This document shows, piece after piece, positions 719-22,137 of a stretch of DNA of 22,137 bases (position 1 is the first letter of the stretch; the number at the start of each line of letters is the position of its first letter). The position numbers were made by a program, and so were the translations under genes. The notes beneath the pieces were generated by a model. The model saw only the letters and a program-made list of their open reading frames with translations. It searched no databases and was not told where the DNA came from. The stretch is from NCBI GenBank assembly GCA_003116975.1, contig BGKB01000322.1:1-22137 (forward strand). The letters run 5' to 3'. The stretch is from Aurantiochytrium sp. KH105 (taxonomy: Eukaryota; Sar; Bigyra; Thraustochytrida; Thraustochytriidae).

Positions 719-788
719 TCCGTGTTGGTGTAATGGTAACATCTGACGCTCTCACCGTCAACCCCCGGGTTCGATTCCCGGACATGGA
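719..788 (+). tRNA. tRNA-Glu (anticodon CTC)
   Basis: A complete 70-nt cloverleaf can be folded by hand. The acceptor stem is TCCGTGT/ACATGGA with one G-U pair. The D stem is GTGT/ACAT with the loop AATGGTA. The anticodon stem is TGACG/CGTCA, a perfect pairing, with the loop CTCTCAC. The variable loop has four bases, and the T stem CCGGG/CCCGG carries the loop TTCGATT. The anticodon CTC is at 751-753 and reads GAG. The internal GGTTCGATTCC is a good B box and TGGTGTAATGG a good A box, so the gene carries its own Pol III promoter. There is no intron and no encoded CCA, as expected for a eukaryotic nuclear tRNA gene. Confidence 0.95.
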
Positions 789-789
789 A

Positions 790-3900: not shown

Positions 3901-4966
3901 TTTCGCCTCTCCTACATTTTTGAATGAGAAGCGTCTGACTCTGGTCGTACAGAGCTTGAGTGAGGTCGAAAATATCATCGAGATTTGTTTTGCCAGGGCT
4001 ACTACAAACGTCGGAGGAAGACTGGGTCCATGATCTCTGTGTAGCGACATCCCCCTTGCATGCCTGCATGAAAGGTGTCTGACTCTGTTCGTATAAAGTT
4101 TGAGTATGGTCGAAGATAGCGTCGAGCTCTGCGTTGTCGTGGCTGATACAAGCATCAGATGAATGGTGGCGCAGGCTCCACGGTTTCTGTGAAACTTCGT
4201 CTTGTGACTGAAGCGACGTCGTCACGACGCTCTGCGGCGACGACTGTTCCTGTCTTTGCGTATGCTGCTGCTGCTGCTGCTCTTGCTGCGTATGCTGCTG
4301 CTGCTCCTGCTGCTGCTCTTGCTGCGTTTGCTGCTGCTGCTCTTGCTGCGTATGCTGCTGCCGTCGCGTCGCCTCCAACGCCGTCGCGAACTCCAAGAGC
4401 GCGACGGCGTCGGCGCGTTCCGCGTCCTTGGCCAGCGCCAGCGCGTCCCGCCCATCCTTCTTTCTCAGCTCCACATTAGCGCCCGCCGCGAAGCAGAGCC
4501 TGACACAGCGCAGGAGGTCCGGAGTAGATGGCTGGCGACTACATGCTATCATAAAAGCCGTCCCTCCTTCGTCGTTCTGCAGATCGAGTTTGGCGCCGCG
4601 TTCGATGAGCAAGCGGGCCGTGTCGGGCTGGGCGTAGCAGCACGCGAACATGAGCGCGGTCCATCCCTTCTTGTTCTGCAGGTCGAGCTCGACGCCGCAC
4701 TCGATGAGCAAGCGTGCCGTGTCGCGCTGGTTGTGGCGGCACGCGAACATGAGCGCGGTCCATCCAAGGTTGTCCTGCAGGTTGCGTTTGGCGCCGCTTT
4801 CGATGAGCCACTGCGCGATGGCAGGCTGGCCCCCGGAGCCCTTGAGGAGGGCGAACATGAGCGGAGTGTGCTTATTCCTCGTCACCGGCGCGTCGAGCAG
4901 GGCGGGCTTCCTCTGCACGGCGAGCTGCACGCCGGCCCGGTCGCCGTTCCTGATGAGCTTGTACAT
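938..4966 (-). CDS. Ankyrin repeat / protein kinase / RBR-like RING fusion protein
   Basis: A 1342-residue uninterrupted frame runs from ATG at 4966-4964 to TAG at 940-938. Residues 1-195 hold ankyrin repeats (repeated GWTALMFAC...DTARLLIE.G units near 68-130). Residues 202-241 are a Gln/His-rich tract, and 269-354 contain a duplicated 38-residue segment. Residues 400-800 are mostly helical with charged, coiled-coil-like stretches (about 725-805). A protein kinase domain spans about 865-1090: VLK lysine at about 894, HCDIKPEN at 984-991 (HRD changed to HCD, catalytic Asp kept), DFD instead of DFG at 1004-1006, and APE at 1027-1029. A RING1 follows: C1101, C1104, C1116, H1120, C1123, C1126, C1151, C1156. 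A RING2/IBR-like motif follows: C1230, C1233, GC1243, C1248, C1252, C1257, C1260, C1271, H1274, C1278. C1243 sits where RBR ligases keep the catalytic Cys. A canonical central IBR is not visible. It is predicted to be a cytosolic signalling kinase/ubiquitin ligase that recognises partners through ankyrins. The substrate is unknown. Confidence 0.93.
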   Translation of the reverse strand: MYKLIRNGDRAGVQLAVQRKPALLDAPVTRNKHTPLMFALLKGSGGQPAIAQWLIESGAKRNLQDNLGWTALMFACRHNQRDTARLLIECGVELDLQNKKGWTALMFACCYAQPDTARLLIERGAKLDLQNDEGGTAFMIACSRQPSTPDLLRCVRLCFAAGANVELRKKDGRDALALAKDAERADAVALLEFATALEATRRQQHTQQEQQQQTQQEQQQEQQQHTQQEQQQQQHTQRQEQSSPQSVVTTSLQSQDEVSQKPWSLRHHSSDACISHDNAELDAIFDHTQTLYEQSQTPFMQACKGDVATQRSWTQSSSDVCSSPGKTNLDDIFDLTQALYDQSQTLLIQKCRRGEISTAKEPEVVETNIDTCGSSVMTPRSHTDEASNENQSFVPTRKELPALLSFLRSLPLAQLHTNTLREMVVELLDQGVQTMNEARRLGFSRLAQLGICSAQDRQLFVKAFGENENHSKIEALAATVAFARGLRDDGKPVLHKMLRSALTRHLKPSSTLEALLNVDTDQADIRDRAALFPKIQSAVETTSTKANMRNTFRKKLVDSVRKALASGMQDHLDNFEKFYGMQHIVDSYRTLWKDILCEPVSCERCPSPITFEKVQRATKAALKALTEWETEYDSSAARERTLASICALDASTTSMGMRHTFYMTLMHPERMSELRGRTQAVEAAFWSELEVLCAEDPIKNAPRKCIQHALSVTLSFYEQTVADKVARTKETIKCLENLLASLEPGLEAPDTDRAESLVKDLRDSRKKRKRIARELEDAKEDANDGDDDARADIPKLERELAKIGSVYKLDSRLRKERARVLRHAETHYPELLGDQEWLKRIGLSDGVPLELSKAGLWLSHVKQESFVTLEELASKPGKTVQKVRASDGRTFVLKTFHLANDTWSGRFYRQVVALAEMRSAYVVRIEGAFMQDAQHGCVIMPYYPGGDLFAWIRDNAHADMATRKRIAIGLLSGLHDLHSRNLVHCDIKPENIFLARGLSPVLGDFDGVQTHDVTMTQPLQATVKYLAPELRNETIDKVEPAVDMYSVRMVLKELFQNCQMPQALQNLTSMLTARNPRERPSAMAALRHQAFQVEPVPVGACAICLDSFPIAEVVACDDAHFTCKKCLQQAIQAAAEPSGHVQIFANGSMKCITPDCDLHISGRTIAAAVPEKDYEVLQKIVRKHTERELAQEHERDVQRRVDEVLRDHGLDPETQNHLRKIQNEILTMSCPRCSAAFADFSGCCALKCGNDCSCYFCAWCLKDVGNSSQGCHQHIANCPSKRSADPYFADFGTVQEAWAQIRTQRLRHYMTERIQNDDIRKKVLEKLQHLLTSDIIGAPFRL
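3905..4162 (-). repeat. Internal duplication, 48-codon offset, in the ankyrin-kinase-RBR gene
   Basis: Residues 269-306 (DNA 4162-4049) and 317-354 (DNA 4018-3905) align without gaps at an offset of 48 residues. Shared features include SSD.C, LD.IFD.TQ, LY.QSQT and Q.C at the same spacing. The copies have diverged at about half the positions, so the duplication is old and retained. The repeated unit matches no domain I know and could be a repeated short linear motif for a partner protein. Confidence 0.75.
4244..4363 (-). repeat. CAG/CTG-rich tract encoding poly-Gln/His linker
   Basis: On the plus strand this is a run of CTGCTG-type triplets interrupted by CTCTTG and CGTATG. On the coding (minus) strand it encodes about 40 residues of Gln with spaced His, Thr and Glu (residues 202-241). 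It joins the ankyrin region to the rest of the ankyrin-kinase-RBR protein. Internal QQEQQQ and HTQQEQ blocks recur, as expected from replication slippage, so the length is likely variable between strains. Confidence 0.85.
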
Positions 4967-6292: not shown

Positions 6293-7021
6293 CTTTCGGC
6301 TTGGCGGGGCACGAAGCCGCGCTCCATCTCATCATCAGCACGTGCAGAGGGCGCCGAAAACAGCGGGGCAAACGGCGCGATCCCCTCGGGGCGCAAGCGT
6401 AGCGGCCAGCCAGGCAAACGGAACATCTTGCAGAGGCCACCGAGGGCAAAGCGTCACCGCGGAGCAGCGATCGAGGCCACCGAGACAATCAAAGCTGGTG
6501 CGGCTGAGGATGCGGATTCCGACGCTGACGCCTCTCAAGATGTCGACGATGAGGATCCTCGCCTCATCAGGATCGTGGCGGATTTCATGGCAGCCTTTGG
6601 GTTTGACGAGAACTACCTCAAGAAACTGCCCAGCGTGCATAATCGCAATCAAGGTCAGCTTCCGGCGGACAACCCTCGCCGTCGTACAATGGTCAATGAC
6701 ATCATGGCGGCCACCGTGCGCATGACGGAGCTCTCGTACCCTGGGGACCCAAGCATCCTGCAAAGGCTAGTCGGCGAGAAGCTTACGGGCAGCATGGACA
6801 AGACCTGCGAGCTGCGCAACCTAATTGGGGCGACGACATCGATCATTCGAGTAGCCCCGAAAGGTTCTATCCAGGGCCGCACAGCGCGCGCTGAGCTTGT
6901 CGAGGGCGTCTCCACCAAAACGCTCAAGGAGCTCCGCAAAACGAATGTGATTACCATGGGCGGTTTGACACATAAGAAGGCGCACAAGGACTACCACGCT
7001 GGGCCACGGAGACATGGATGA
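6293..7021 (+). pseudogene. Unrecognised coding-like open frame, possibly an internal exon or decayed gene
   Basis: The frame is open from just after a TGA at 6290-6292 to TGA at 7019-7021, about 242 residues. There is no ATG near its beginning: the first in-frame ATG is at 6587, inside what looks like conserved sequence. The first ~95 residues are basic and disordered-looking (GRKRSGQPGKRN, then PPRAKRHRG, a possible nuclear localisation signal), followed by a D/A-rich acidic stretch. From about 6550 on, the sequence looks like a folded helical domain (IRIVADFMAAFGFDENYLKKL, then RRRTMVNDIMAAT, then LSYPGDPSILQRLVGEKL). I do not recognise the family. Lack of a start codon and its direct run into a broken RBR gene copy suggest a pseudogene, a spliced exon or a transposon-captured fragment. 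The alternative is a real gene whose first exon lies upstream of 6290. Confidence 0.4.
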
Positions 7022-7045
7022 GTACGCGCTCGCAAACCTTTACGC

Positions 7046-7358
7046 GACTTTGACGGCTGCTGTGCTCTGTCATGCGGCGTTTGCCCCGTGTCGTTTTCGC
7101 GCATGGTGTCTCCAGGATACAGGCAATGACTCGCAGGCTTGCCATCAGCACGTGGCGAGGTGTGCGTCGAAGCCTGGTGGAGAAAAGGACCCATTCTTTA
7201 GCGATTTCGCTGTTGTACAGCAAGCGTGGGCTCGGCTTCGTGCACAACGTCTTCGTGAGTACATGGCAAATCGTATTCAGGATGCAGGCACACGTGCCAT
7301 CGTCCAGGCCAAGCTACGTCCACTCCATACGCCGGACATTGTCGGCGAAAAAACTTAA
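7046..7358 (+). pseudogene. Frameshifted copy of the C-terminal RING2 region of the ankyrin-kinase-RBR gene
   Basis: Two adjacent frames together match residues ~1239-1342 of the protein encoded at 938-4966. From 7046 one frame reads DFDGCCALSCG, matching ADFSGCCALKCG. Near 7082-7092 a frame change is needed. The other frame then reads AWCLQDTGNDSQACHQHV, matching AWCLKDVGNSSQGCHQHI, and continues through DPFFSDFAVVQQAWARLRAQRL and PDIVG to a TAA at the same relative position as the parent stop. By eye, identity is about half over the final 85 residues. It lies in the opposite orientation to the parent-like gene. Upstream RING1, kinase and ankyrin parts are absent, so this is a 3'-truncated-copy relic of a paralogue and not a recent duplicate. 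Confidence 0.8.
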
Positions 7359-9722
7359 GATTCGACTGGTAAATGTTGCGAGAATGTTTGAAACGCCCGT
7401 GCCCTTGCCCTGAAGTGCTCGCCGAGGCCCAAGACGCTGCTGCGGTCTTCCTTCGCCTTCCTCGCTGCTTACTGCACGCAAGGTCGAGTCGACGAAAGAC
7501 GCGAGACGGCCTTTGCAGCTCGCGCGCCTCGATTCACCGCAGCTCGCCAAACGCAGCCACATCCCGGGCCACCGCTCCTCTCGTGGCTCGCCCGCGTCGC
7601 CGGCGCCCGCGTCGGCAAGCGGGCCCTCGTGCATTCATGGTCTTCGTCGATCTCCGCATCGCTCCGGCGCCAAGGCGCTGCGGCGAGGCTTGCCGCAAGC
7701 GCGCGCCCGCCCGGAGGCGCCTCGGGCTCTCGACGCCGTCCGTCGGGCCCGCGCGCTGCCTAGCCCTGGCGTCACCCGCAGCACCGGGCATCATCGTCTG
7801 TTTACGTTGGCGGTGTCGCTCAATACGTCATTCACAGTGACTGACTTTCCGAGTTCTGTTCACTTGCTGCGCACAAGAACTCTAGTGTGGATGGGGGAAA
7901 AGAGCCCCGACATTGGCATCGCCATTGCCGCTATTTCTCTCTCCCGAGGCACGCCTGACGAGAGGCAGTTTTGACAATGACGATGACGACGACGACGACG
8001 AAGAGGAGTGATGGCCTTCGGCGTCCAGTCCGCGTGTAGGCTTTTAGCCTGCAGCGCGCAAATTCGACCGAGGTGGCCAAACTAATAGTTGGCCAGCGAT
8101 GCCGCTGAGTACAGAGGTTTCATCACAAGGCACACGAACCCAAGCGTGATGCACCACAGCCATTCGGCAACAAGTTGATTGGGAAAAGGGTAGCTGTAAA
8201 TACATCTCACTTCGCTTTTTTCTTCTTCTCTAAAAGAACGTAACTCGCTCTCTCTATCTTTCGTCCACGAAGCTCGGGCGTCAGAAGCGAACCAAAGCTG
8301 TTGGGCTGCTGCTGCTGCATAACCGCGCTTTAGCTGCCTTTGGTCTCGGGCAATGACTGCATTCCGGCATTCCAGCAGCGTCAATGTTCATCTCCGCAGC
8401 ACTTTCCGTGCGGAGGGCATGTATTGTTTGTGCAGGCATTCACCATGGCCACGCGACCCACGACAATACCCGCTCATTCCTCGTCCACGCCGGCGCCAAC
8501 GAACGCACCCAAACGAGTCGACGCTGGCCGGATCACCTTTCGCCGCTGAAGGCCTGCGCAACCTTCATACCGTGCGGGGCTGAATGAAGATCCCGCAACC
8601 TGAAGTTCGTTTGTAGCGTGACGAGCAATGTATGTGTGCGCGTTGAAGCATGCCTCTCGTAAAAGTGCGAGTGTTCGAGCATGCACAAGGCCAAGCCAAA
8701 TAAATAAAACGAGCCCAGATCAGTCTACGGCGACCTTGCTGAGGAACCACAAAGGCAGAGAGGAGGAGCCCGATTCGCTCCCGAAAGGGCCCACCAGAGC
8801 AAGCCAAAGGATTGCAAGGCATGGCGTTCCCATCAGCACGTGTGAGCGTGAGAAGTCGTCAGCGCTGGCGAGCATCGCTCTGGCCTGACAACTTGGCCTG
8901 TCCTTCGCGCTTGCGCGCTGCACAGGGCACGGCATCAGCACGTTGCGCAGCCAGACAGACAGAGCACGAGAGATGTGCGGGAGATCAGCTGGCTGCCCGT
9001 CTGCCCGCCCGCCGATCCGACGAGCCAAAGTCTGCGCAAGGGCAGCTTCGGCAAGGCGGCCTTGTCCAAAGACAATTCTTTTGTGTGTGGCACCCCGCCT
9101 AAAGCATGCTTCGAGTGAGGGACCACGAGAGTCACGTCGTGTACTACAGCAATGAAGGGCTGGCTTCCCGGACAAACGACCGGCGTCTGTCTGTGTAGAA
9201 GGAACCACGCGAACGCGCGAAGCTTCTGCGCGAGCTCGGCGCGGCGGCAGAGGCGACCTTGTCAGCGAGCGCAATGTCTCGACGTTTTCCCGTCCTTCCG
9301 GCGCGGCGGCTCGTGTGAAACAACGCTCAGACCCCACCATGCAATCCCATCGCACAGAGCGCTGCTCGCCTCGGCCCTCCTCCTCCCATCCAGCCACCAT
9401 GGCCACTGCGCCGCCGCCGCTCCCTCGACCACGGCGCGATCTCCCGCCGTTCTCCCTCCCTCCCTGCAGCAGCGGCTGCAAGCACGTGCCGCTCTCCCAA
9501 GTATCTTTCACGCAGTCCTCCTACTACCGCGAAGGGGGGGAGGGGAACCGCAGCGAGGATCGATCGATGAGTCGATCGACGGGCGCAGCAAGAAGGAACG
9601 CAGCGGGAGAAACCAGACGCGCTTCGTCGACAGGACCGGCCAGTCCGTGGCCGCGCCAGGAGAGAGCGGGCTTGCGCAGCGCGCGCGCTCCCTCTCCTCC
9701 TCCTTCTCCTCGCGCGATCGAG
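7359..9722. other. Long intergenic region, GC-rich, no supported gene
   Basis: Several frames are open (for example 7373-7840 and 9152-9751 on plus, 8720-9511 on minus), but all are Arg/Ser/Pro/Ala-rich, overlap each other on both strands and show no domain. A GAC/GAA triplet run at about 7973-8008 would encode an Asp/Glu-rich tail ending in TGA, but its frame is closed by a TAG at 7883-7885. A 12-mer CATCAGCACGTG or near copy occurs at 8831 and 8933, and also at 6333 and 7143. The right end must contain the promoter of the TIR-NACHT-WD40 gene. No clear TATA box was found. Confidence 0.5.
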
Positions 9723-9748
9723 GAAAGAAAGAAAGAAAGAAAGAAAAA
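9723..9748 (+). repeat. (GAAA)6 microsatellite just upstream of the NLR-like start codon
   Basis: Six GAAA units followed by AA end 15 bp before the ATG at 9764. The tract is a pure purine run in the presumed 5' leader or core promoter. Its position suggests that length changes could influence expression. This is inference from position only. Confidence 0.85.
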
Positions 9749-9763
9749 TAGGGCGAGGCCAGC

Positions 9764-12700
9764 ATGAGTTGGGCGACGCGCTTGCTCACGCTCTTCAAGA
9801 GAGGACGCGACGACGAAGCCACCACCGACGCGGAAGACGAGCCGATCAAAAGCGTGCTGCCTGCGGACGTTGCCCTTCTCGTGGTCTACGACCCGGCAGA
9901 TGAACAAGTAGCCAAAGACTTGATCGAAAAGCTCCAACCTCACCTCAGCTTGCCGGTGCGCACCGCGAGCCACGTCGCAGAGGCAAAAGAGGAGGCCAAG
10001 GTGGCCAAGGTCGCCGCGATGCTAGTGAGCGCAGCATTACAGAGGAACAAACCACTCGTCGAGGTCGTAGCTCGCAAGCTACCCCACGCGCTCGTTCCAG
10101 TCGTCGTGGACAAGGCCATGATCCTGCAAGAGTCATGGAACAGCGCAATGAGCTATCGTATGGCCGACGAGGTACAATTTGACTTTTGCGAGCCTGAAAC
10201 AGCCATCATTTCTCATCTTCTCGACCAGATTCAACACAAAGGAAGCGGCAAGTACCTCCGCAAGATCTTTGACGCATACATTTCTCACGATCGAAAGGCA
10301 CGCGACATTGCGAAAGAGATCGCGAAGCGCCTCAAAGACCAACATGATTTGAAAATATGGCTTGACGAAAACCAGGGGCTGCGAAGCGCCGACGAGAGCG
10401 TGTCACAAGGTATCGCATTATCCAAGGTCTTCCTCGTCCTCGCAACCCAGGGGTACATGGACAAGGTGAACCGAGAAGACCGCCGCGAGAAATGCGTCCA
10501 AGAATTTCTGCACGCCCGCGAGAACCGCGCAGATCGAATTGTGGTCGCTGCGCTGGAACCGACCATGGCCGATGCCGTGACCCAATGGAAGGGGCAATTT
10601 CGACTCGCTCTCAATCAACAGTCACCCGATGATCTATCGACACTGTCGGACGAAGCCATAACGCATCTTGTCGGCACAATCTGGTCACGCATCGATTTCC
10701 CAGAGGCCTCGTCAGATCTGACACCCCTCATGTGCCGCATTCGTCATCGGTTGCGCCCCTGCAGCTCCGAGGCATGGGCCAAGGGTAAGGCGGGAAACTT
10801 TACCCTCGGCACGCGAAGCTGGATCATCGACGAGCTTTGCGACTGGTACAACAAGAAACAGAGTGCCGTCTTCATTCTTGTGGGCGACGGCGACGTCGGC
10901 AAAAGCGTCATCATGGCCGAGCTTTGCCATCGTGGTGGCGCTTTCATGACCAACGTAGATGCTAAAAAGAGCATCGAGCCGCGCCGAAAGTCGTCTCGCG
11001 TGCGAAGCTTGTGGCGTTCAAGCAAGAAAGAGCGCTCGCCCATCTTAGTAGCAGCGTACCATTTCTTTCGACACGATGATGGGACCGCGGCTTCACCTGC
11101 TGAAGCCGTTCTGAGCATTGCTTGGCAACTGTGTCAGACCGTGTCTCATTTCCCTGACGCACTCGATCAAGTAAGCTTGGAGGGTCTTCGAGAAAAGACG
11201 CTGGCGGGTCTTTTCAAGACAATTCTTGTCGATCCTTTGAACAAGCTCGGCTCAGGCCAGATGCGACAAGTGGTCGTGCTCGACGCTCTCGACGAGTGCA
11301 GCAAGAGCAACGATGTTTTGCGCAAGGTCATTTGCACGTGGAAGGACGTGATGCCAACATGGCTCAGCTTGGTCGTGAGCACACGTCCCGAAGGCGAGAT
11401 TCGAAGCGTTATCACCAACAACAGCCTTGACTCCAAAGTGCTGAAGCTTGAGGACGAAGAAAACCTTCGCGACATCGAGCTTCATATCGAGCATTTGTTA
11501 CACGACATGAGTGATGTTGTGGAACCAAAAGACGTTGCTTCCTGCGCCAAGACTCTTTCCGAGCGATCCGAAGGTCTCTTTCTCTGGACGAGCTTTCTTC
11601 CCGAAACCCTGAGCCGGATGCACGAGGAAAAGCGAGACGGATTGCTGACCTTGCAGGACATTTCTCACGAAGACGCCATTCCTTATGGGCTTGACGGCAT
11701 GTTTCACGTGTACCTCGAGCGCCTGCGAAGAATACTTGGTGGTGAGGAGAAGTACAAGATGCTCCTGTCGCCGATCGTAGCTGCTCGTGAACCACTGAGT
11801 GTCCAGCAACTATGTTCAATTCTGCAATTGGACCAAAATGATACGGATGATATGGTTGACGACGCGAGCAACCTCTTATATCGACGCGAAGATGGTCGTG
11901 TGGCGCTCATCCACAAGCGAATGACAGACTGGCTGCTTGATGATCATCTGAGCGGAAATATTGGCGTGAACATGGATGATGGCCATGTTGCCTTGGCCAA
12001 ATACTGTAGCAGCTCGCGCAACGATGCCTTTTCGCTCCGTCACGCCGTCTTTCACCTCGTCAAGAGCGGCGAGCACGCTGAGGCTTTCGAGCTTCTGAAT
12101 GACTTTGCATGGGTACAGAGCGCCATCTCTGTTGGTGACGATGAAGCGCAAAGGCGCGCCACAATCGGTAACCTCATTCGCGACTGCGCCGAACTCGGCA
12201 TCTACTTTGCGCCCGAAAGTGATACGCCCCGCTTCCTGAGCAAAGCAGTGCATGCCCTCAGCTACGATCCCGGAGAATTTGCGTCGCAGGTTCTGGCGCG
12301 TCTTGGTCATGACTCGAAAGATCATTTCGCATGCAGTCTACAAACACCTGATCAGCCATGGCTGGAGCCTATTCGCGTCACCCTTGCTCATCCCCGCGAC
12401 CCCTTGCTGCACGTGTTGAAGGGGCACTCTGGTGAGGTCAACAGCGTGGCGATACAGGGCGACACCATCGTCAGTGGGTCCGGTGGGTTATCCTCGACGG
12501 ACAACACGGTGCGCATCTGGAACGCTACGTCGGGCGAGGAGCAGCACGTGTTGAAGGGGCACTCTCGTGAGGTCAACAGCGTGGCGATACAGGGCGACAC
12601 CATCGTCAGTGGGTCCTCTGACAAGACGGTGCGCATCTGGAACGCTACGTCGGGCGAGGAGCAGCATGTATTGAAGGGGCACTCTGATTGGGTCTTGAGC

Positions 12701-14188
12701 GTGGCGATACAGGGCGACACCATCGTCAGTGGGTCCGAAGACAAGACGGTGCGCATCTGGAACGCCACGTCGGGCGAGGAGCAGCACGTGTTGAAGGGGC
12801 ACTCTGAATATGTCAAGAGCGTGGCGATACAGGGCTACACCATCGTCAGTGGGTCCGAGGACAAGACGGTGCGCATCTGGAACGCTACGTCGGGCGAGGA
12901 GCAGCACGTGTTGAAGGGGCACTCTGATTGGGTCTTGAGCGTGGCGATACAGGGCGACACCATCGTCAGTGGGTCCAGAGACAAGACGGTGCGCATCTGG
13001 AACGCCACGTCGGGCGAGGAGCAGCACGTGTTGAAGGGGCACTCTGGTCCTGTCTACAGCGTGGCGAAACAGGACGACACCATCGTGAGTGGGTCCGATG
13101 ACGAGACGGTGTGCATCTGGAACGCTACGTCGGGCGAGGAGCAGCACGTGTTGAAGGGACACTCTGGTTGGGTCAGGAGCGTGACGATACAGGGCGACAC
13201 CATCGTCAGTGGGTCCTCGGACAACACGGTGTGCATCTGGAACGCTACGTCGGGCGAGGAGCAGCACGTGTTGAAGGGACACTCTGATGTGGTCTGGAGC
13301 GTGGCGGTACAGGGCGACACCATCGTCAGTGCGTCCAGGGACAAGACGGTGCGCATCTGGAACGCCACGTCGGGCGAGGAGCAGCACGTGTTGAAGGGGC
13401 ACTCTGAATATGTCTGCAGCGTGGCGATACAGGGCGACACCATCGTCAGTGGGTCCTGGGACAAGACGGTGCGCATCTGGAACGCTACGTCGGGCGAGGA
13501 GCAGCACGTGCTGGAGGGGCACTCTGATGCGGTATGCAGTGTGGCGGTACAGGGCGACACCATCGTCAGTGGGTCCGAAGACAACACGCTGCGCATCTGG
13601 AACGCTACGTCGGGCGAGGAGCAGCACGTGTTGAAGGGGCACTCTGGAACGGTCAGCAGCGTGGTGATACAGGGCGACACCATCGTCAGTGGGTCCTATG
13701 ATAGAACGGTGCGCATCTGGAACGCTACGTCGGGCGAGGTGCAGCACGTGTTGGAGAGGCACTCTAATTGGGTCACCAGCGTGGCGATACAGGGCGACAC
13801 CATCGTCAGTGGGTCCGATGACAACACGGTGCGCATCTGGAACGCTATGTCGGGCGAGGAGCAGCACGTGTTGGAGGGGCACTCTGATTATGTCAAGAGC
13901 GTGGCGATACAGGGCGACACCATCGTATCACAGTCAAGGAATGAGACTCGTTACTGGAACGCTCGAATGGGCGAGGCACTCGACGCGGATGAGGCGGAGG
14001 CATCGATTACACCTGGAACAAAAGCTTTGGTGAATGTTGAGAATGGAACGCATGTGAAGCTTAGCGAAGGCATAGGCTTCACGACGGATCATGCAATCTA
14101 CGACACAGCTCGCCAAGGAAGTGTTTACGTTATTGGCGACGTTATCGGGATGGTACACATCTTGCATGTCCAAAAAAATCGAACCTGA
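9764..14188 (+). CDS. TIR-NACHT-WD40 NLR-like STAND protein
   Basis: A 1474-residue uninterrupted frame. The ATG at 9764 has A at -3 and is the first in the frame next to the protein-like sequence. Residues 35-150 look like a degenerate TIR-like Rossmann region (VALLVVYDPAD, then AKVAAMLVSAALQ, then LVPVVVD). Residues 168-265 form a TIR domain: FDAYISHD 169-176, LKIWLDE 196-202, SKVFLVLATQGY 220-231, and CVQE with E247 at the expected NADase glutamate. The NACHT NTPase spans about 345-620: Walker A GDGDVGKS 374-381, Walker B VVVLDALDE 503-511, STRPE sensor 539-543, GLFLWTS 604-610. A fungal-NWD-like helical segment follows (AAREPLSVQQLCSIL, then LIHKRMTDWLL) to 880. Thirteen WD40 repeats start at residue 883, then an unrepetitive tail. 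It is expected to act as a cytosolic sensor: WD40 ligand binding, NACHT oligomerisation and TIR NAD+ cleavage or signalling. The ligand is unknown. Confidence 0.95.
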   Translation: MSWATRLLTLFKRGRDDEATTDAEDEPIKSVLPADVALLVVYDPADEQVAKDLIEKLQPHLSLPVRTASHVAEAKEEAKVAKVAAMLVSAALQRNKPLVEVVARKLPHALVPVVVDKAMILQESWNSAMSYRMADEVQFDFCEPETAIISHLLDQIQHKGSGKYLRKIFDAYISHDRKARDIAKEIAKRLKDQHDLKIWLDENQGLRSADESVSQGIALSKVFLVLATQGYMDKVNREDRREKCVQEFLHARENRADRIVVAALEPTMADAVTQWKGQFRLALNQQSPDDLSTLSDEAITHLVGTIWSRIDFPEASSDLTPLMCRIRHRLRPCSSEAWAKGKAGNFTLGTRSWIIDELCDWYNKKQSAVFILVGDGDVGKSVIMAELCHRGGAFMTNVDAKKSIEPRRKSSRVRSLWRSSKKERSPILVAAYHFFRHDDGTAASPAEAVLSIAWQLCQTVSHFPDALDQVSLEGLREKTLAGLFKTILVDPLNKLGSGQMRQVVVLDALDECSKSNDVLRKVICTWKDVMPTWLSLVVSTRPEGEIRSVITNNSLDSKVLKLEDEENLRDIELHIEHLLHDMSDVVEPKDVASCAKTLSERSEGLFLWTSFLPETLSRMHEEKRDGLLTLQDISHEDAIPYGLDGMFHVYLERLRRILGGEEKYKMLLSPIVAAREPLSVQQLCSILQLDQNDTDDMVDDASNLLYRREDGRVALIHKRMTDWLLDDHLSGNIGVNMDDGHVALAKYCSSSRNDAFSLRHAVFHLVKSGEHAEAFELLNDFAWVQSAISVGDDEAQRRATIGNLIRDCAELGIYFAPESDTPRFLSKAVHALSYDPGEFASQVLARLGHDSKDHFACSLQTPDQPWLEPIRVTLAHPRDPLLHVLKGHSGEVNSVAIQGDTIVSGSGGLSSTDNTVRIWNATSGEEQHVLKGHSREVNSVAIQGDTIVSGSSDKTVRIWNATSGEEQHVLKGHSDWVLSVAIQGDTIVSGSEDKTVRIWNATSGEEQHVLKGHSEYVKSVAIQGYTIVSGSEDKTVRIWNATSGEEQHVLKGHSDWVLSVAIQGDTIVSGSRDKTVRIWNATSGEEQHVLKGHSGPVYSVAKQDDTIVSGSDDETVCIWNATSGEEQHVLKGHSGWVRSVTIQGDTIVSGSSDNTVCIWNATSGEEQHVLKGHSDVVWSVAVQGDTIVSASRDKTVRIWNATSGEEQHVLKGHSEYVCSVAIQGDTIVSGSWDKTVRIWNATSGEEQHVLEGHSDAVCSVAVQGDTIVSGSEDNTLRIWNATSGEEQHVLKGHSGTVSSVVIQGDTIVSGSYDRTVRIWNATSGEVQHVLERHSNWVTSVAIQGDTIVSGSDDNTVRIWNAMSGEEQHVLEGHSDYVKSVAIQGDTIVSQSRNETRYWNARMGEALDADEAEASITPGTKALVNVENGTHVKLSEGIGFTTDHAIYDTARQGSVYVIGDVIGMVHILHVQKNRT
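12410..13984 (+). repeat. Thirteen WD40-encoding tandem repeats, 120-bp period, highly homogenised
   Basis: Repeat starts (the CAC or CAT codon of HVL[K/E]) are at 12410, 12545 and then every 120 bp to 13865. Repeat 1 is 135 bp because of five extra codons (GGLSS region). Repeats 2-12 are exactly 40 codons. Repeat 13 decays at its end (TRYWNARMGEA). Long blocks are identical at the DNA level, including third codon positions (for example the GGCGACACCATCGTCAGTGG block). Replacements cluster at repeat positions 8, 9 and 11 (after GHS) and 25 and 27 (around the conserved Asp). Repeats 3 and 5 share almost the same DNA, including the rarer GCC in NAT. This is the product of recent unequal exchange or gene conversion. 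Confidence 0.95.
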
Positions 14189-14707
14189 GACCGAATCGTG
14201 TGGCTTTGCGCTACCGTGTTGTTGAGACATATACCGCTGCGCGAACAAAAGTGTCACCGCTTACTCAAGGTACACACCATCGAGCGAGTACGCGCGCTCG
14301 CGTGCGCGCATCCTGTCGGTGTGTACACGTTAACGGCGATATAAAGGAAAAAGTGAGCCGCACCACAAACTCGAGCCTAGGTTTAGGGTATCTAAACGTC
14401 GCGAGCAGACTCGGTCTGCGTGTAGCGCCAATTTCCGATTGAACTCATCTTTACTCTGGTTGCATTTCTACCATGTGACTATACGTGTGCCATTCCTGCG
14501 TGGGCGACCGAAATTGACTGCTTATAATCACTTACTGCGACGCAGTAGTAGTCTCTCACATATAAACTTTTGCTGTTCTTTTCTGCCCTCTCGGTCTTTT
14601 TTGTTGCACGCGCCGCAACAAAACAAAAATTGACGTTTTATAAAGCTATGATAGATCGAAGGTGGTTCATTCCACGAAGCTCTGTCTGCCCTCGGGAGAC
14701 GGATGAC
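14189..14707. other. Intergenic: 3' flank of the NLR-like gene up to the spacer array
   Basis: No gene is seen. It should contain the 3' UTR of the upstream gene. A CG-rich alternating stretch (about 14286-14312) and AT-rich sequence toward 14560-14640 are the only notable composition changes. A clear polyadenylation signal was not identified. Similarity to the ~1.4-kb units begins abruptly at 14708. Confidence 0.5.
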
Positions 14708-16111
14708 GAGCCAAAAAAGAAGGCAAGCTGGCTGGGCTTGTTCGCCGCAGATCTCGCTGGGAAGGCTGTAGATCGTCCGCGCACGCTACGTGCAGGCTTT
14801 GGCAAGATATTGTGGCGTCATGCAAGCATTTTCGCATTGATCAAGGGCCTTGACGGTGGTTTTTATGGCGTTTGTCACGAGAAGATGATGTGCGTACGCG
14901 CGAGCGAAGCAGCTACGCAAGCTGCAGACCCGGCGAGACGAGCTCGCTGAGCTGACTGGCACGTTTGCACGCTGGCCAATATATCTGTTCGTTTGCAAGA
15001 TGGTTGACGCATGTTGCAGGTATCGTTGGCGAGGCAGAGAGCCTAGAGTGCGTGGTATGTGCACAGTATTGGCTTGTAGACTGACTGCACGGATAGAAAA
15101 TGGCGTCGCAGGCCAGCGAAGGGTTTGGTTTGCGCAGGCAAGCCTATTCAAGAGCTAGGCTGGAAATCAGCGGAATTTCAGCTGCGCTCGAGGTGCAAGA
15201 AAGAGAGCAAGGTGAATAAAGTAAACAATATGAGGCAGCGCTGGCAACGCGCGCGAGAGCAAGCAAATGCTGCGCGATCCTGGTCGCAGAGCTTGTGGAG
15301 GACTGGCAGGGATGTGGTAGATCCGTGAGAGCAGTTTTGGCAGCGTGCTGCTTGTGTAAGTCAAGGCTAGTATTGCAAACGAGGTGTTGCTTGGCTAAGT
15401 AGATGTGTTTTGGTCCGCTTGGGGCTTGAGAGGGATGGCGGATGACCTGCAAATGAGCTTGCAAAGGCTGGTCCAAGTCTGTAGCTTGGCTGTATGGTTT
15501 TTGTTTGGATCGAGCGAGTATTGTTGAAGAGAAAAGCATGCTAATGAGTTTGACCTGTTTTTTTGTTTTTTTGAACCGAGCTCTTTGTTGGTTTCGTTGC
15601 CTGCAGAAGAAGTGGGCAGCGTCGTTGGACAGAACAGCGCGGGCGATGCGTAGGTCTTGCGCAGCGAAGTGGTGTGGCTTGATATCGTCGGCGTGGGCGG
15701 AGAGCTCGTGCAGGCAGCGTTGTTGCGAAAGATAAAATAGACGACGCAAAAAAGAAAGAAAATGTGGTGTGGCTTTGTGGCAGGAGATCGAGCAAGCAAG
15801 AGATGGCAGAGGCGAAACAAAGACAGCAGTAGACAGCGTAGGTCTAGTGCAGGAGCTGAGCGTGGTTGCTTTTGCTGTCGGTGAACACGTGCGGCAGTGG
15901 AGGATAGTTGAAGTTGGCAAAAAAGAGGCGAACAAATAAGGAGAGAATATGTGAGCGAATGTAGGGCAGGCGATTGCTACGTCAAGACCATGAAAAAGTA
16001 CGCGCATCGAAGGACGAGACGGTGCAGAGTAGGAGCTAGTGCCGAGACAAGCGCTGGGCTCGTCGGCACAGTCATCGTCTTTGCAGTGGATGCGAAAAGC
16101 GGCTGCTTGTT
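14708..16111. repeat. Spacer unit 1
   Basis: First complete copy, about 1404 bp. It starts at GAGCCAAAAAAGAAGG and contains the TTGACGCATGTTGCAGGT block at 15004 and the CACGTG-centred block at 15886. It carries a 369-codon minus-strand open frame (16253-15144) that is not preserved in the other copies. Confidence 0.85.
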
Positions 16112-17524
16112 GAGGCAAAAAAAAAAAGAAGACAAGCTGGCTGGGCTCGTTCGCCGCAGATCTCGCTGAGATGACTGCAAATCGTCTGCGCACGCTATGC
16201 TCAGGCTTTGGCAGGATGTTGTGGCATCGTGTCATCATTCTTGTATGGATCAAGGGCCTTGACGGTGGTTTTTATGGCGTTTGTTCACTGAAGAGGAGAC
16301 GAACGCGAGTCCGTGACGCAGCCACGCGCGCTGCAGACCCGGCGAGACGAGCACGTCGTGCTGATTGACCGTGAATGGGTGCTAGGCGGTGTATGCGATC
16401 GCTTTTAAGATTGTTGACGCATGTTGCAGGTGTGCTTGGTGAGGAAGAGCACCCAGAGCGTGGTATAAGCAAAGCAAAGTATCGGCTTGGACAGTGGCTG
16501 CACGGGCAAAGAGGGATTGCATCGCCAGCAAAGGGTTTGGTTCGCGCTGACAAGCCTATTCAAGAGCTGGGCTTGGGATTAGCAAAATTTCAGCTGCTTT
16601 CGAGGTGCCAAGAAGGCGAACAAAGTAAAGGTGAACAATATGGGACAGCGTTGGCACCGCACGCGAGAGCAAGCAAATGATGCGCGATCATGGTCGCAGA
16701 TATTGGGGAAGGCTGGCAAGCATGTGGGAGATCGACGAGAGCGGTTCTGGCAGCGTGCTGCTTGTGCAAGTCAAGGCTAGCGTTGCGAACGAGATGTTGC
16801 TTGGCTAAGTAGATGTGCTTTGGTCCATCCTCAGCCTGCCGACACTAACGGATGATCTGCAAATGAGCTTGCCAAGACTAGTCCAAGTCTGTAGCCTGGC
16901 TCTATGGTTTTTGTTCGGATCGAGCTCGTATTGTTGAAGAGAAAAGCATGCTTGTGCGTTTGTCACCTGCTTTTTTGTTATTAGAGCTGAGCTGTTTGTT
17001 GGTTTCGTTGCCTGCAGAAGAGATGGGCAGCGTCGTGAGACAGAGCGAGACGCGCGCTGCGTAGGTCTTGCGCAAAGAGATGGCATGGCAAGATTTCGTC
17101 GGCGTGGGCAAAGAGCTTATGCAGGCAGCGCTGTTGTGAAAGAAGAAAATGACGACACAAGAAGAAGAAGAGAATGAGGTGTGGCTTTGTGGCACCAGAC
17201 GGAGCGAGAGAGCAACGGAAGAGACAAGGCAGAGGCAGCCGGAGGCAGCGCAGGTCTAGCGCAAGAGCTGAGCGTGGTTGCTTTTGCTGTCGACGACCAC
17301 GTGCGGCAGTGAAGGGTGGCTAAACTTGACCAAAAAAGACGAAATAAATAAAGAGAGAATGGGGGAGCGAGTATTCATGGCTGGCGTTTGCGATTGCAAG
17401 AGCACGAAAAAGTACGCGCATGGCAGGGTGAGACGGTGCAGAGTAGGACCTAGTGCCGACGCAAGCGCTGGGCTCGTCGGCTCAGTCATTGTCTCTGCAG
17501 TGGATGCGAAAAGAGGCTGCTTAT
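16112..17524. repeat. Spacer unit 2
   Basis: Second copy, about 1413 bp. It opens with an expanded A tract (11 A at about 16117-16127) in place of the shorter run in units 1 and 4. Internal blocks are at 16414, 16941 and 17298. It has a local divergence at 16827-16850, where the other copies read GGGGCTTGAGAG. Confidence 0.85.
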
Positions 17525-18929
17525 TAAGGCAAAAAAAAAAGAAAAGCTGTTCGGGCTTGTCCGCTGCCGCTCTCGACGAAAATGCTGTAGATCGTCCGCA
17601 CACGCTGTGTACAGGCTCTGGTAAGATTTTGTAGCGTCAAGTAAGCATTTTTGCATGTATCAGAGGCGCTGGCGTTAGCTTTTATGACGTTTGTTCACGA
17701 GAAGATGAGGTGCGTACGAGTGAGCGAAGCAGCTACGCAAGCTGCAGACCTGACGATGCGTGGTCGACGAGCTGACTGGCACGAATGAGCGCCGGACATT
17801 GTATGTGATCGTTTACAAAAAGGTTGACGCATGTTGCAGGTGTAATTGTCAAGAAGAGAGCCGAGAGTGCGTGGTATATGCAAAGTATCGGCTTGAAGAC
17901 TGACTGCACGGATAGAAAAAGGCGCCGCATCGTCAACAAATGGTCAAGCTTGCGTGTAAGAGCTTGTGTAAGAGCTAGGCTGCGGATCAGAGAAGTACCA
18001 GCTGCTACCGAGGTGCAAGAAAGAGAGCAAAATAAAGATGAGTAATATGGGGCAGCGTTGGCAACTCATGCCAAAGCAAGCAAATGCAGTGCGATCATGG
18101 TCGCAGAGCTTGGAGAAGGCTGGCAGGCATGTGGTAGAAGCACGAGAGCAGTTTTGGCAGTGTGCTGCTTGTGTAAGTCAAGGCTAGCGATGCGAGTGAA
18201 ATGTTGCTTGGCTAGCTCGGTGCGCTTTGGTCCGCTCGGGGCTTGAGAGCGATGGCGGATGGACTGCAAATGAGCTTGCAAAGGCTGATCCAAGTGTATA
18301 GCTTGGCTCTATGGTTTTTGTTTGCATCGAGCGAGTGTTGTTGGAGAGAAAAGCATGGTAGTGCGGCTGTCTCTTGTTTTTCTTGTTATTTGAGCTGAGC
18401 TGTTTGTTGGCTTCGCTGCCTGCAGAAGAGATGAGCAGCGTCATAAGACAGAGCGACGCGCGTGATGCATAGGTCTTGCGCAGGGAGAAGCTGCGTGGTT
18501 CGATTTTGTTAGTATGGGCGAAGAGCTCGTGCAGGCAGCGTTGTTGTGAAAGAAAGAACGATTCAAATACAAGAAAATGAGGCGTGGCTTTTTGGCCCGA
18601 GATCGAGCGAGCGAGAGATGGCAGAGGTGAAAAAAAGGCAGGGGTAGGCAGCGCAGGTCTAGTGCGAGAGCTGAGCGCGTTTGTTTTTGCTGTCGGCAAT
18701 CACGTGCGGCAGTGAAGGATGGTTAAAGTCAACAAAAAAAGAGGCGAACAAATAAGGAGAATAGGGGAGCGAGTGTAGATGGCAAGCTTTGACTGCGGCA
18801 CGAGTGAGCAAAAGGTACGCGCATGGCAGGTCGAGGTAGTGCAAGGTAGGAGCTGGGGCTAAGGCAAGTGCTGAGCTCGTCGGCACAGTCACTGTCTGTG
18901 CAGTGGATGCGAAAAGCTGTCTTGTCGAG
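17525..18929. repeat. Spacer unit 3
   Basis: Third copy, about 1405 bp. It starts at an expanded A tract near 17531, with internal blocks at 17824, 18348 and 18701. It is the most diverged near its beginning (17640-17700). It ends at the GAGCC site, where a 336-bp sequence not found in the other junctions is inserted. Confidence 0.85.
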
Positions 18930-19265
18930 AGCCAACTGCTGAGGAAATGAATGGACTGTAAGATGGGTTCTGTTTCAACGCTGATTGGTTACGAATGTTT
19001 CGGGTCTGCTCGTGACGGGACCGCTTTGGCTCGGCGCCAGGTCCGAGACTTGGATAAGTGATGTGCAGAGAAGCTGGTGAGGAGCACGGGACTTTGTCAC
19101 ACTTTTCGGCAAGGAGATGTTCACTGCCGTGACTTTGTAGTCTGTCCTCACCTAGTACACTGACCGCTGCAAGGGGTTTAGATGAGGCTTTTTTTATGGG
19201 CGAAAGGTTGAAGTCATCTTGTCCATGCCGTATCAGCCATGGTGGCGTCATTGTCTTATTTCGAT
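18930..19265. mobile_element. 336-bp insertion at a spacer-unit junction, flanked by 7-bp direct repeats
   Basis: The sequence between spacer units 3 and 4 has no counterpart at the other junctions. AGCCAAC occurs at 18930-18936 and again at 19266-19272, as a target-site duplication would appear, with the unit sequence resuming as AAAGAAGGCAAGCTGG. No terminal inverted repeat, poly-A tail or open frame is evident. A bulged hairpin (GGACC at 19018, GGTCC at 19040) lies inside. It may be a non-autonomous element (MITE or SINE type), or a relic of a different spacer sequence retained during array rearrangement. Confidence 0.45.
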
Positions 19266-20661
19266 AGCCAACAAAGAAGGCAAGCTGGGTGGGCTTGCTC
19301 GTCGCAGAACTCGATGCAAAGGCTGCAAATCGTCCGCGTACGCTGTGAGTAGGCTCGCGTAAGATGTTGTGGCGTCATGCGTGCGATTTCGCATGAATCA
19401 AGGGTTGAGCGGTGGGTCTGTGAGGCGTCTGAGCGCGAGAAGATAAGATATGTATGGGTTGTTGATGATGATACGCAAGCTGCAGACATGACGAGACAAG
19501 CTCGCTGAGCTGATTAGCATGAATGGGTGTTGGTGAATATATTTGTTCGTTTGCAAGATGATTGACGCATGTTGCAGGTGTCGTTGGCGAGGAAGAGGGC
19601 ATAGAGTGCGTGTTACATGCAAAGTGTTGGCTTGAAGACTGGTCTCACGGATAGCAAAAAGGTGCCGCATCGTCAACGAATGATCATATCTGCGTGCGCA
19701 AGCTTGCTTGGGAGATAGGCTTCGAGTCATCAGAAAATTTGCTGCGTTCGAGGTGCAAGAAGGCGAGCAAGGTAAAAGTGAACAATATGGGGTAGCGTCG
19801 GCAACGCACGCAAGAGCAGACAAATGCAGCGCGATCATGACCACAGAGCCTGGGGAGGCTGGCAGGCATGTGACAGACCCGCGAGAGTAGTTTTAACAGC
19901 GTGCTGCTTGTGTAAGTCAAGGCTAGCGTTGCGAACGAGGTGTTGCTTGGCTAGCTTGGTGGGCTTTGGCCTGCTCGGGGCTTGAGAGTGATGGCGGATG
20001 ATCTGCAAATGAGCTTGTAAAGGTTGATCCAAGTGTATATGCTGACTCCATGGTTTTGGATTGGCTCGAACGATTGTCGTTAAAGAGAAAAGCATGCTAG
20101 TGCGTTTGTCTCCTGCTTTTTTGTTTTATTGGAGCTGAGCTCTTTGTTGGTCTCGCTGCCTGCAGAAGAAGTGAGCAGCGTCGTGAGACAGAGCGAGGTG
20201 CGCGGTGCGTAGGTCTCACATAGAGAGGTGGCGTGGCTAGATTCCGTCGGTGTGGGCGGCGAGCTCGTGCAGGCAGCGCTGTTGTGAAAGAAAGAACGAC
20301 ACAGATACAAGAAGAAAATGAGGTGTGGCTTTGTGGCAGAAGATCGAGCAAGCGAGAGATGGCAGAGGCGAAACAAAGGAAGCCAGAGGCAGCGTAGGTC
20401 GAGTGCAAGAGCTGAGCGTGGTTGCTTTCGCTGTCGATGGCCACGTGCGGCAGTGAAGGATGGCTAGAGTTGATCAACATGACGCGAGCTAAAAAGAGAG
20501 AAAATATAGATGGCAAGCTTTTGACTGCGGCGCGAGTGAGCAAAAGATATGCGCATGGCAGAGCGAGATGGCGCCAAGGTAGGAGCTGGGTGTGAAGCAA
20601 GTGCTGAGCTCATCGGCACAGCCATTGTCTCTGCAGTGGATGCGGAAAGCTGCCTTGCTGA
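19266..20661. repeat. Spacer unit 4
   Basis: Fourth copy, about 1396 bp, closest to the 18S gene. Internal blocks are at 19562, 20087 and 20442. It is followed by the ~33-bp beginning of a fifth copy (20662-20695), where similarity stops and single-copy sequence begins. Confidence 0.85.
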
Positions 20662-20697
20662 GAGCCAAAAAAGAAGGCAGGCTGGCGGGGCTTGCGA

Positions 20698-21981
20698 ACG
20701 GCAAACAATATGGTGACGAGATCTTTCGCGAGCGAGCAGCCGGCTGCGCAAGAGCTTTTCATGTGCGATGACCAGCAAGACAGGGCAGTCTGTGCGTGTG
20801 GCGCGTCGTGTGTCGGCTTGGTACAGATCGACTTGGTTCTTGTACTGCAAAAAGAGCAACAAGAAACTTGACTTGTGAAAGCCTCGCACGGCTCTTTGGT
20901 GTTGGTTGCGGTGCAGCAGAAATCGTCAGCCGCTGGTGTCATACCTGTTGCAGCCGCGTGAGGGTGCGCTGAAGGTGTCGCGTCGCTCGCTGAACCTGCA
21001 GTCTGGGCGATAGTTGAGCAGAAAATGAACAAAATGGGCTGTGTTAGATGCACTTTTTGCTGCACAGCGACAAGAGGAGCGAAGCTTGGGCACTCAAAAA
21101 TTTCAAAGTAGATCAACAGGACGGACTTGACGTTTGGGTGCCCAAATGAGGTCCCCGAAATCAAGTGCCAGGGCGGTGCAAGGGCGGTGAGCAAGGGGGC
21201 GTACATGGTCAAATACATTCGAGCAAGTTGGGCCAAGTCGATTTTTGCGAAGAATTTTTTGACGATGAGAGCAAATTAAGGTGTTCATTGAGGGCACTGA
21301 TTTGTGTACAGTGAGCCCCACAGTTTCGCATGCAAAGCTCTCCGCGCCGGTCACTTTGTCGCCTCGGTTTGCCGTTGATCCGCAAGCCTGACTCTCGGCT
21401 ACCAATTTTTTTCGAGCATGAAAGAAAGAGGCCTATTCAAAATTTTTGGGCCTATTTCGAGTCCAACGGTCCGGGACTGCGTTTCGCAAGAGGCGCGGCA
21501 ACGGATCGTTTTGGTCTCTTCATTTTTCTTCGGGGTTGCGTGCGGACTCTGGCTGGCGGAAGTGCTTCTGTGATGGAGGCGTGGAGCGGGCAGGAAGAAG
21601 CGCGCTAAGATTTGTTTTTTGTTGAGGCAGCGCACTGGCGTTTGGCAGTTGATGTCGATGCCGGTGGTCATGGTGCCGCAGAAGTGGAAGCTTCGTTTTC
21701 GTACGCTGTTGCGAAACGTTTTGAACTGATACCGATGGTGTGGAGACCGTTCGGGCTGTTTGAGTCGATTGATTTCGAACTTGAAACAGCGTGGGCACTC
21801 TACAACAAAGGTCCTCCTAGCGGCGCTTGATTATAGCGCGAGCTTGGCGGGATCTGGTAAAGGTTTGGAAGGACGAATGGCTGAATTGAACTCAGTTTTG
21901 CTTTGTTTGTTTGAGATAGATTTCGATCTGGTTGATGTGATTTTTGCATCGACTGGATCGTGAACTAGTCGACAGTATAGC
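20698..21981 (+). promoter_or_regulatory. Single-copy region between spacer array and 18S: expected Pol I promoter and 5' ETS
   Basis: About 1.28 kb without a supported gene or repeat. In eukaryotic rDNA the Pol I promoter and 5' external transcribed spacer lie immediately upstream of the 18S gene, so this segment should contain both. Pol I promoters are not conserved enough to place by eye, so the transcription start is not marked. No 5S rRNA gene was seen here. Short open frames on both strands (for example 21612-21830) look non-coding. Confidence 0.45.
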
Positions 21982-22137
21982 AATCTGGTTGATCCTGCCA
22001 GTAGCCCTACGCTCGTCTCAAAGACTAAGCCATGCATGTGTAAGTATAAGCGAATTATACTGTGAAACTGCGAACGGCTCATTATATCAGTTATAATCCC
22101 TTCGGTAGTTCCTTTACACGGATACCTGCAGTAATTC
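21982..22137 (+). rRNA. 18S (small-subunit) rRNA gene, 5' end (3' partial)
   Basis: The sequence begins AATCTGGTTGATCCTGCCAG, the near-universal eukaryotic 18S 5' end. It continues with AAGCCATGCATG, TAAGTATAAGC and TGAAACTGCGAACGGCTC, all in the correct order and spacing. The variable parts (CATGTGTAAGTATAAGCG, CCCTTCGGTAGTTCC, GGATACCTGCAGTAATTC) resemble thraustochytrid/labyrinthulomycete 18S as I remember it. Only the first ~156 nt are inside the window. One base differs from the usual AACCTGG at the very start. Confidence 0.97.

Follow-up and report, generated by a model that had tools for sequence, protein, structure and literature searches.

A TIR-NACHT-WD40 gene family in Aurantiochytrium sp. 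KH105 with homogenised repeats and hypervariable codons

Background

The HET-D, HET-E and HET-R proteins of Podospora join a NACHT domain to an array of nearly identical WD40 repeats in which change is limited to a few codons of the predicted interaction surface, and repeats are exchanged both within and between members of this HNWD family, according to the available portions of two reports (PMC12222747, PMC4986451). The excerpted text of the first classes the repeats by seven positions of high dN/dS (10, 11, 12, 14, 30, 32 and 39) and elsewhere names four codons under diversifying selection (PMC12222747). Receptors that combine concerted and diversifying evolution in this way are best known from filamentous fungi, whose fusing cells need allorecognition. 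As far as the accessible part of a survey by Hu et al. (2017) goes, prokaryotes supply more than half of the WD40 proteins whose internal identity exceeds 0.4, a value passed by about 2% of those from fungi and protists (PMC5587647).

Here we analyse a gene of this design from a thraustochytrid. The window is the whole of contig C322, 22,137 bases long, and belongs to a genome of 76.0 Mb in 367 contigs. An original prediction, made from the letters of the window alone, had described a WD40 array homogenised in DNA and diversified at five positions per repeat, and had likened these positions to those of Podospora.

Results

The window carries a single-exon gene at 9764-14188 (+ strand, as are its features below), with no intron and a product of 1474 amino acids that is 59-80% identical to ten Hondaea homologues. 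From the open reading frame, Pfam and these homologues, the protein comprises a TIR-like domain, a TIR domain, a NACHT domain, a winged helix, a WD40 array and a C-terminal cap. The first alpha/beta domain (9869-10243) had no Pfam match and may be TIR-like, judging from its layout in the best of five AlphaFold2 models of the TIR region (elements 38-161), which scored 74.0, the remaining models scoring 53-58. It is followed by a TIR_2 domain (PF13676; 10277-10561; 40.8 bits, cut-off 28), a putative NADase effector in which alignment places the glutamate of a C-x-x-E motif, E247, at 10502-10504. C244 is kept in 13 of 13 alignment rows and E247 in 12 of 13, and the pattern was found in 32 of 35 family open reading frames; we take this glutamate to be the catalytic one of known TIR domains. 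The fold and the motif thus combine a TIR domain with a glutamate at the catalytic position, as in TIR NADases. When compared to SARM1 (9mw2_B), the TIR model gave a target-normalised TM score of 0.76 (rmsd 3.3 over 145 columns) at a Foldseek E value of 0.013, and no Foldseek match to this model fell below 0.001. A Pfam scan of residues 1-348, in which TIR_2 was found, contained no HET domain.

A NACHT-type STAND ATPase was matched at 10808-11380 by NPHP3_N (PF24883; 61.5 bits, cut-off 24.8), with the Walker A motif GDGDVGKS at 10883-10906 and the Walker B motif VVVLDALDEC at 11270-11299, while the Pfam model named NACHT itself scored under its cut-off on the window protein (13.8 vs 26.7 bits). 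The Walker A pattern is present in all 35 family frames and a strict Walker B pattern in 31. With the winged helix that follows (HTH_TANC1, PF25521; 11750-12067; 34.5 bits, cut-off 27), Walker A, Walker B and winged helix, the marks of a STAND/NLR ATPase, are all present, and a NACHT-type NOD precedes WD40 repeats as in the Podospora HNWD proteins. The gene is predicted from its sequence to encode an NLR-type receptor of the order TIR-NACHT-winged helix-WD40. The C-terminal cap (13985-14185), marked by a GFTT motif in 27 of 32 family frames, is perhaps one cryptic blade, the cap strands at model positions 581-604 being of low confidence. A 464-amino-acid open frame on the opposite strand crosses the array (12488-13882, -); it is an expected by-product of the 120-base period and does not point to a gene.

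The array itself consists of 13 WD40 repeats at 12410-13984, starting at 12410, 12545, 12665 and so on to 13865, and every residue that had been quoted for positions 8, 9 and 11 and for positions 25 and 27 proved correct. Repeat 1 has 45 residues owing to a five-residue insert, repeats 2-12 have 40 each and repeat 13 is degenerate beyond about position 23. Repeats 2-12 share a mean identity of 0.826 in amino acids and 0.893 in nucleotides, and the amino acid value separates into 0.922 over 35 framework positions and 0.156 over the five hypervariable positions. The mean lies above the internal conservation of about 80% or more that marks the HNWD type, and the least similar pair, at 0.750 in an ungapped comparison, lies above the threshold of Hu et al. 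(identity of at least 0.7 in six of eight contiguous repeats). The further claim that nearly everything else is constant, synonymous sites included, was slightly overstated, since the framework is largely but not fully constant: of the 35 framework codon columns, 16 show no variation in DNA and 24 none in amino acid, at a framework pS of 0.083.

The predicted excess of replacement change at the five codons was borne out, as they are the top five in pN among 40, and in 20,000 random draws of five codons their pN sum was never reached. The ratio of hypervariable pN to framework pS is 7.0 (4.3-12.8 by bootstrap over repeats), a value that conversion can raise by lowering framework pS. Differences at two or three bases were found in 153 of 275 hypervariable codon pairs and in 5 of 1925 framework pairs. 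Inside the hypervariable codons pN is 0.578 and pS 0.329, the latter inflated by multi-hit codons.

Across the first 32 loci, per-site entropy was calculated from the 247 indel-free repeats of 368 detected. The same five positions stand out, at 3.79 bits (position 9), 3.48 (25), 3.43 (11), 2.80 (8) and 2.40 (27), followed by 1.66 bits for the sixth-ranked position. In the available text of Wu et al. (PMC3419727), the top-face hotspots of WD40 propellers are R1, the first variable residue in (V/L/I)-R1-R2-(V/L/I), R1-2, two residues before it, and D-1, the residue directly before the tetrad aspartate. The register V10-x11-S12-V13 and x25-D26 makes R1 position 11, R1-2 position 9 and D-1 position 25, and these equivalents are the three most variable sites family-wide. 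A model of the WD40 region (pLDDT 74.9, pTM 0.59) served for strand order only; its blade partition is not trusted because two different stretches, 60-379 and 178-498, can each be aligned to a closed ring of eight blades. In repeat 7 of this model strand a spans positions 10-16, b 19-24 and c 28-33, and this strand order puts positions 8, 9 and 11 at the d-a loop or start of strand a and positions 25 and 27 in the b-c loop. The two loops belong to the top face as defined in the accessible text of PMC3419727, in agreement with the prediction that the five sites share one surface. The best PDB sequence match is a highly repetitive propeller structure, 2ymu.

The supposed identity with the Podospora positions held for five of seven, by our own reading of the WD register between the two lineages; the remaining two, at about 7 and 34, are not hypervariable here (entropy 0.93 and 0.39). 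The residues found at positions 9, 11 and 25 are strongly non-random, with tryptophan 6.9, tyrosine 4.1, asparagine 3.2 and aspartate 2.3 times as frequent, and valine 0.3 and isoleucine 0.2 times as frequent, as in random codons at an assumed GC of 0.55.

A query with the NACHT domain found 59 places in the genome at 64% identity or more, split matches counted once, with further ones below 40%. Some of the 59 are probably haplotype pairs; the Hondaea genome measures about 39 Mb, we presume, and 76 Mb would then hold two haplotypes. When the last repeat and the cap served as query, 57 places were found, from C322 (100%) to C262 (43%), followed by weaker or single-repeat matches. Open frames were read at 35 of the 59 NACHT places from stop to stop, so that some upstream residues are counted as N-terminal. 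Repeat number differs among copies, with 6, 8, 9, 10, 11, 12, 13, 16, 18 and 20 occurring in the family. The idea that repeats and one cap always add up to a multiple of seven (6, 13 and 20 repeats) fits P0005, the window and P0001/L021, but is ruled out by the arrays of 8, 9, 10, 11, 12, 16 and 18 repeats.

Protein searches returned as family-level matches 11 proteins of Hondaea fermentalgiana (P0001-P0010 and P0112) and, in a single search, one environmental protein (P0090, 36% over 97%); among these matches, from the best roughly 8,000 candidates scored per search, there was no other named thraustochytrid. Several of the published members are misleadingly named, for example as a G-protein beta subunit. 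Five match individual loci closely (P0003/L032 99.8%, P0002/L029 99.1%, P0007/L022 98.2%, P0009/L009 98.2%, P0010/L016 97.9%), and the best of the 32 loci for five others is less close (P0006 92.9%, P0001 89.0%, P0004 87.6%, P0005 74.0%, P0008 64.4%). The close matches place the genome in H. fermentalgiana or very near to it, within the Labyrinthulomycetes. Such arrays invite the suspicion that their structure is an artefact of assembly or collapse: P0004, P0006, P0007, P0009 and P0010, encoded on contigs of 2.9-4.4 kb, break off inside the array or just ahead of it, WD40 arrays seem to break short-read assemblies, and Illumina assemblies fail on arrays of this sort according to the excerpted text of PMC12222747. 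We regard an artefact as highly improbable here, as the open frames (1091-1905 amino acids) span the array in all 32 first loci, the GFTT cap follows in most of them, and P0002 and P0003, which come from a different assembly, agree repeat by repeat with L029 and L032.

Diversifying change extends across the family, with hypervariable pN exceeding framework pS in 26 of the 28 genes (out of 32) that have at least four indel-free repeats, the exceptions being L031 and L032. Within genes hypervariable pN lies at 0.39-0.71 whatever the age of the array, with framework pS ranging from 0.016 to 0.695. We set apart 18 young genes (framework pS 0.016-0.194) and six old ones (at least 0.436), limits drawn after the per-gene values were seen, with L023 (0.230) in neither set.

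In the young arrays the framework is homogenised, as concerted evolution would have it, across loci rather than mainly inside one gene. The framework difference in young arrays is 0.060 within and 0.061 between genes, so that homogenisation gene by gene, with repeats closer within than between genes, is absent from them. Between young genes framework pS is 0.110 against an upstream pS of 0.360 and is lower in 105 of 105 pairs from 15 genes; between old genes the values are 0.614 and 0.646, with framework lower in 6 of 10 pairs from 5 genes. This test covers 15 of the 18 young and 5 of the 6 old genes, the start-motif pattern having missed L002, L014, L018 and L026. In 100-codon blocks the synonymous difference drops from 0.75 to 0.23-0.34 on approaching the array. 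Since old arrays gather synonymous change freely, the low framework pS is unlikely to stem from codon constraint. Exchange between genes is incomplete, given some within-gene signal in the whole set (0.116 within vs 0.143 between genes). A weaker within-gene signal also appears in the nearest framework neighbour, which lies in the same gene for 0.181 of repeats vs 0.035 for shuffled labels (222 repeats in 29 genes, the partners L009, L029 and L032 being left out of this test alone).

L004 and L020 share three successive repeats whose hypervariable words are identical, and their 18 aligned hypervariable codons are all the same, despite an N-terminal pS of 0.198. Repeats 3-6 of L019 (GWYGK), four neighbours identical in DNA, are a very recent tandem expansion. 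L014 and L018 share the hypervariable words of their last two repeats and differ in most others, with hypervariable pN 0.325 vs N-terminal pS 0.114. L002/L020 runs opposite to the trend (framework pS 0.138 vs N-terminal 0.121), and L026/L029 has only a slight hypervariable excess (pN 0.084 vs 0.058).

Saturated hypervariable codons in a fresh framework could also arise from targeted diversification, by a mutator or by short-tract exchange that hits only the hypervariable micro-segments. The array of L019 fits this, with hypervariable pN at 0.39 though framework pS is 0.016, as do the many two- and three-base differences in the window. Codon pairs for the same amino acid differ about twice as often at hypervariable sites (105/668) as in the framework (1546/18801), and codons 8, 9 and 11 are shared as cassettes (52 identical pairs vs 18.3 expected, sd 4.8), with 9 and 11 linked (z = 5.0) and pairs involving 25 or 27 at z of 1.8 or less. 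Selection and ordinary conversion can explain the same data, however, all four bases occur at all 15 hypervariable codon positions with no adenine-only pattern, and stable loci, described below, hold the same codons without fast change. Targeted diversification appears improbable to us.

Haplotype pairs were inferred from identity across flanks, giving four probable pairs of equal repeat number: L008/L009 (95.0% over 7.1 kb), L031/L032 (92.7% over 5.8 kb), L021/L035 (90.0% over 6.2 kb) and L036/L037 (88.0% over 4.9 kb). L014/L018, a diversifying pair (91.3% over 6.1 kb), could also be one. The 20-repeat locus is available in three copies, L021, L035 and P0001 of another assembly, whose repeats align one to one. 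Hypervariable residues differ at 42/100 (L021/L035), 36/100 (P0001/L035) and 38/100 (P0001/L021) positions, compared to 98/665, 106/658 and 69/672 in the framework (10-16%) and 87/904, 66/772 and 54/772 in the N-terminal part (Fisher's test of hypervariable vs framework, p = 2.2e-9, 1.3e-5 and 3.9e-11, in the same order). Between L021 and L035, hypervariable pN (0.255) exceeds even N-terminal pS (0.143). P0006 and L011 differ at 12 of 15 hypervariable and 8 of 99 framework residues.

The other three pairs have no hypervariable excess: 3/65 hypervariable vs 11/455 framework differences in L008/L009 (p = 0.40), 3/59 vs 20/413 in L031/L032 (p = 1.0) and 4/45 vs 21/311 in L036/L037 (p = 0.54). P0002/L029 and P0003/L032 are nearly identical, with 1/60 and 0/59 hypervariable differences. 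Diversification at all loci is thus contradicted; because repeat number and nearly all hypervariable residues are kept in these three pairs, the outcome there is the one that the original prediction had named as speaking against itself. The family holds both diversifying and stable receptors.

The stable pairs, in which hypervariable sites change no faster than the framework, would suit an origin by recent tandem duplication, with surface loops under relaxed constraint and neither positive selection nor exchange across loci, and Hu et al., in the accessible part of their paper, see most highly repetitive WD40 proteins as recent duplications (PMC5587647). Such an account sits poorly with the seven-fold excess of hypervariable pN over framework pS in the window, with the L021/L035 comparison, with the tryptophan-rich and valine- and isoleucine-poor choice of residues, and with a framework homogenised among genes whose upstream divergence is three times greater. 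We give it little credence, and retain repeat exchange joined to selection as the preferred reading.

The genome search brought up no allele of the window gene. Its nearest copy, L005 on C356, has 8 repeats vs 13 in the window (L001), and the two differ at 21/38 hypervariable and 14/280 framework residues (p = 8.4e-14), in an alignment that is partly arbitrary owing to the unequal arrays. C356 was considered as an allele of the window locus and set aside as a related copy: homology extends over window positions 7418-14484, with a further match of roughly 70% in the rDNA flank, and C356 has no match to the kinase gene at 938-4966 among the best 40 of 371 candidates.

That kinase gene is an open frame of 1342 amino acids (938-4966, -) with ankyrin repeats and a protein kinase domain by Pfam. 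By eye its cysteine-rich C-terminus resembles an RBR ubiquitin ligase, a reading for which Pfam gave no hit. The genome holds related DNA at some forty places (at least 45 matches), and a frame at 7014-7358 (+), resembling by eye the C-terminal end of its product, is probably a truncated copy. A tRNA-Glu gene (CTC) lies at 719-789 (+).

Downstream of the receptor gene, matches inside C322 mark an rDNA-flanking repeat at 14710-20692 (no strand assigned) that recurs near contig ends; a query of 15000-18000 was found on at least 16 contigs and is terminal in C15, C185, C212, C51, C329 and C322, whose lengths are known. The window closes with the first 156 bases of an 18S rRNA gene (21982-22137, +; Rfam RF01960, 139.8 bits), cut by the contig end. 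GC skew is strong, 0.21-0.36, throughout 15001-22000. Family members are frequent near contig ends: of the 32 mapped genes, 18 are no more than 10 kb away from one (9.7% expected), as are 10 of 23 genes on contigs of 100 kb or more, with distances approximate. An exact four-unit TTAGGG pattern was not found in the genome.

Discussion

The most satisfactory explanation, and in our judgement a likely one, is that repeat exchange and selection on contact codons act together in a family of NLR-type receptors. The WD40 propeller would sense a ligand through its variable top-face residues, the NACHT domain would switch, open and oligomerise after target binding, and the TIR domain would signal or kill, probably through NAD+ cleavage, in a role that may lie in defence, for instance against viruses, or in allorecognition. 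By recombination among repeats, both inside a gene and across paralogues, units would be added, removed and exchanged and the framework homogenised, and selection would keep altering the five contact codons, giving new specificities. The counts reported here bear out exchange and selection.

The genomic setting may contribute. Collier et al. (2023) reportedly describe subtelomeric rDNA in Aurantiochytrium, and a terminal rDNA flank is the pattern expected for it, which points to a position of the family at chromosome ends. Contig ends are not proven chromosome ends, and their enrichment may reflect assembly breaks at repeats. The window gene probably belongs to a large, partly subtelomeric family of intracellular NLR-type receptors, and a subtelomeric position perhaps aids repeat exchange. 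A bolder version would see a continuing diversifying system at chromosome ends, in which dozens of TIR-NLR genes swap WD40 units near subtelomeric rDNA and contact codons, saturated despite a fresh framework, are renewed by targeted exchange or mutation, yielding antibody-like, lineage-specific repertoires; this we consider improbable.

The same design in a unicellular stramenopile, with matching contact positions and a TIR effector, suggests a general route to adaptable intracellular sensors, perhaps directed against viruses. With stable and diversifying paralogues side by side in one genome, selection and exchange become directly measurable.

The design itself is already known, from the Podospora HET-D/HET-E type and from highly repetitive WD40 proteins. 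Like HET-D, HET-E and HET-R, the window gene joins a NACHT domain to a near-identical WD40 array with few variable codons, and diversifying change at top-face codons, a trait of the Podospora HNWD genes, is found here except at the stable loci. In the available account of the Podospora proteins, 11 conserved and three cryptic blades are modelled as two seven-blade propellers; by analogy, 13 repeats and one cap would likewise make 14 blades here. The effector is HET in Podospora and TIR in our family, and, unlike the HNWD genes, the window copy belongs to a stramenopile, has repeats of 40 residues and lies beside rDNA. Podospora has ten NWD genes, compared to 59 places here, and its repeats differ more between paralogues than within one, as the excerpted text has it (PMC12222747), whereas those of the young arrays here do not. 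The highly repetitive WD40 proteins of Hu et al., as described in the accessible text, share hotspot sites that vary and an internal identity above 0.7 (PMC5587647); to that survey we add cross-locus and haplotype tests within one eukaryotic family. TIR-NLR and TIR NADase effectors such as SARM1 and AbTir have the same fold, with the C-x-x-E glutamate at the same position, the TIR domain here being coupled to a NACHT and WD40 sensor, with a putative NADase function. Among the papers that our literature search listed, none dealt with thraustochytrid NLRs and none combined NLR, WD40 and thraustochytrid; as far as the search goes, what is new beside these systems is the lineage, the TIR effector, the family size, a homogenisation equal within and between genes, and the presence of stable beside diversifying members.
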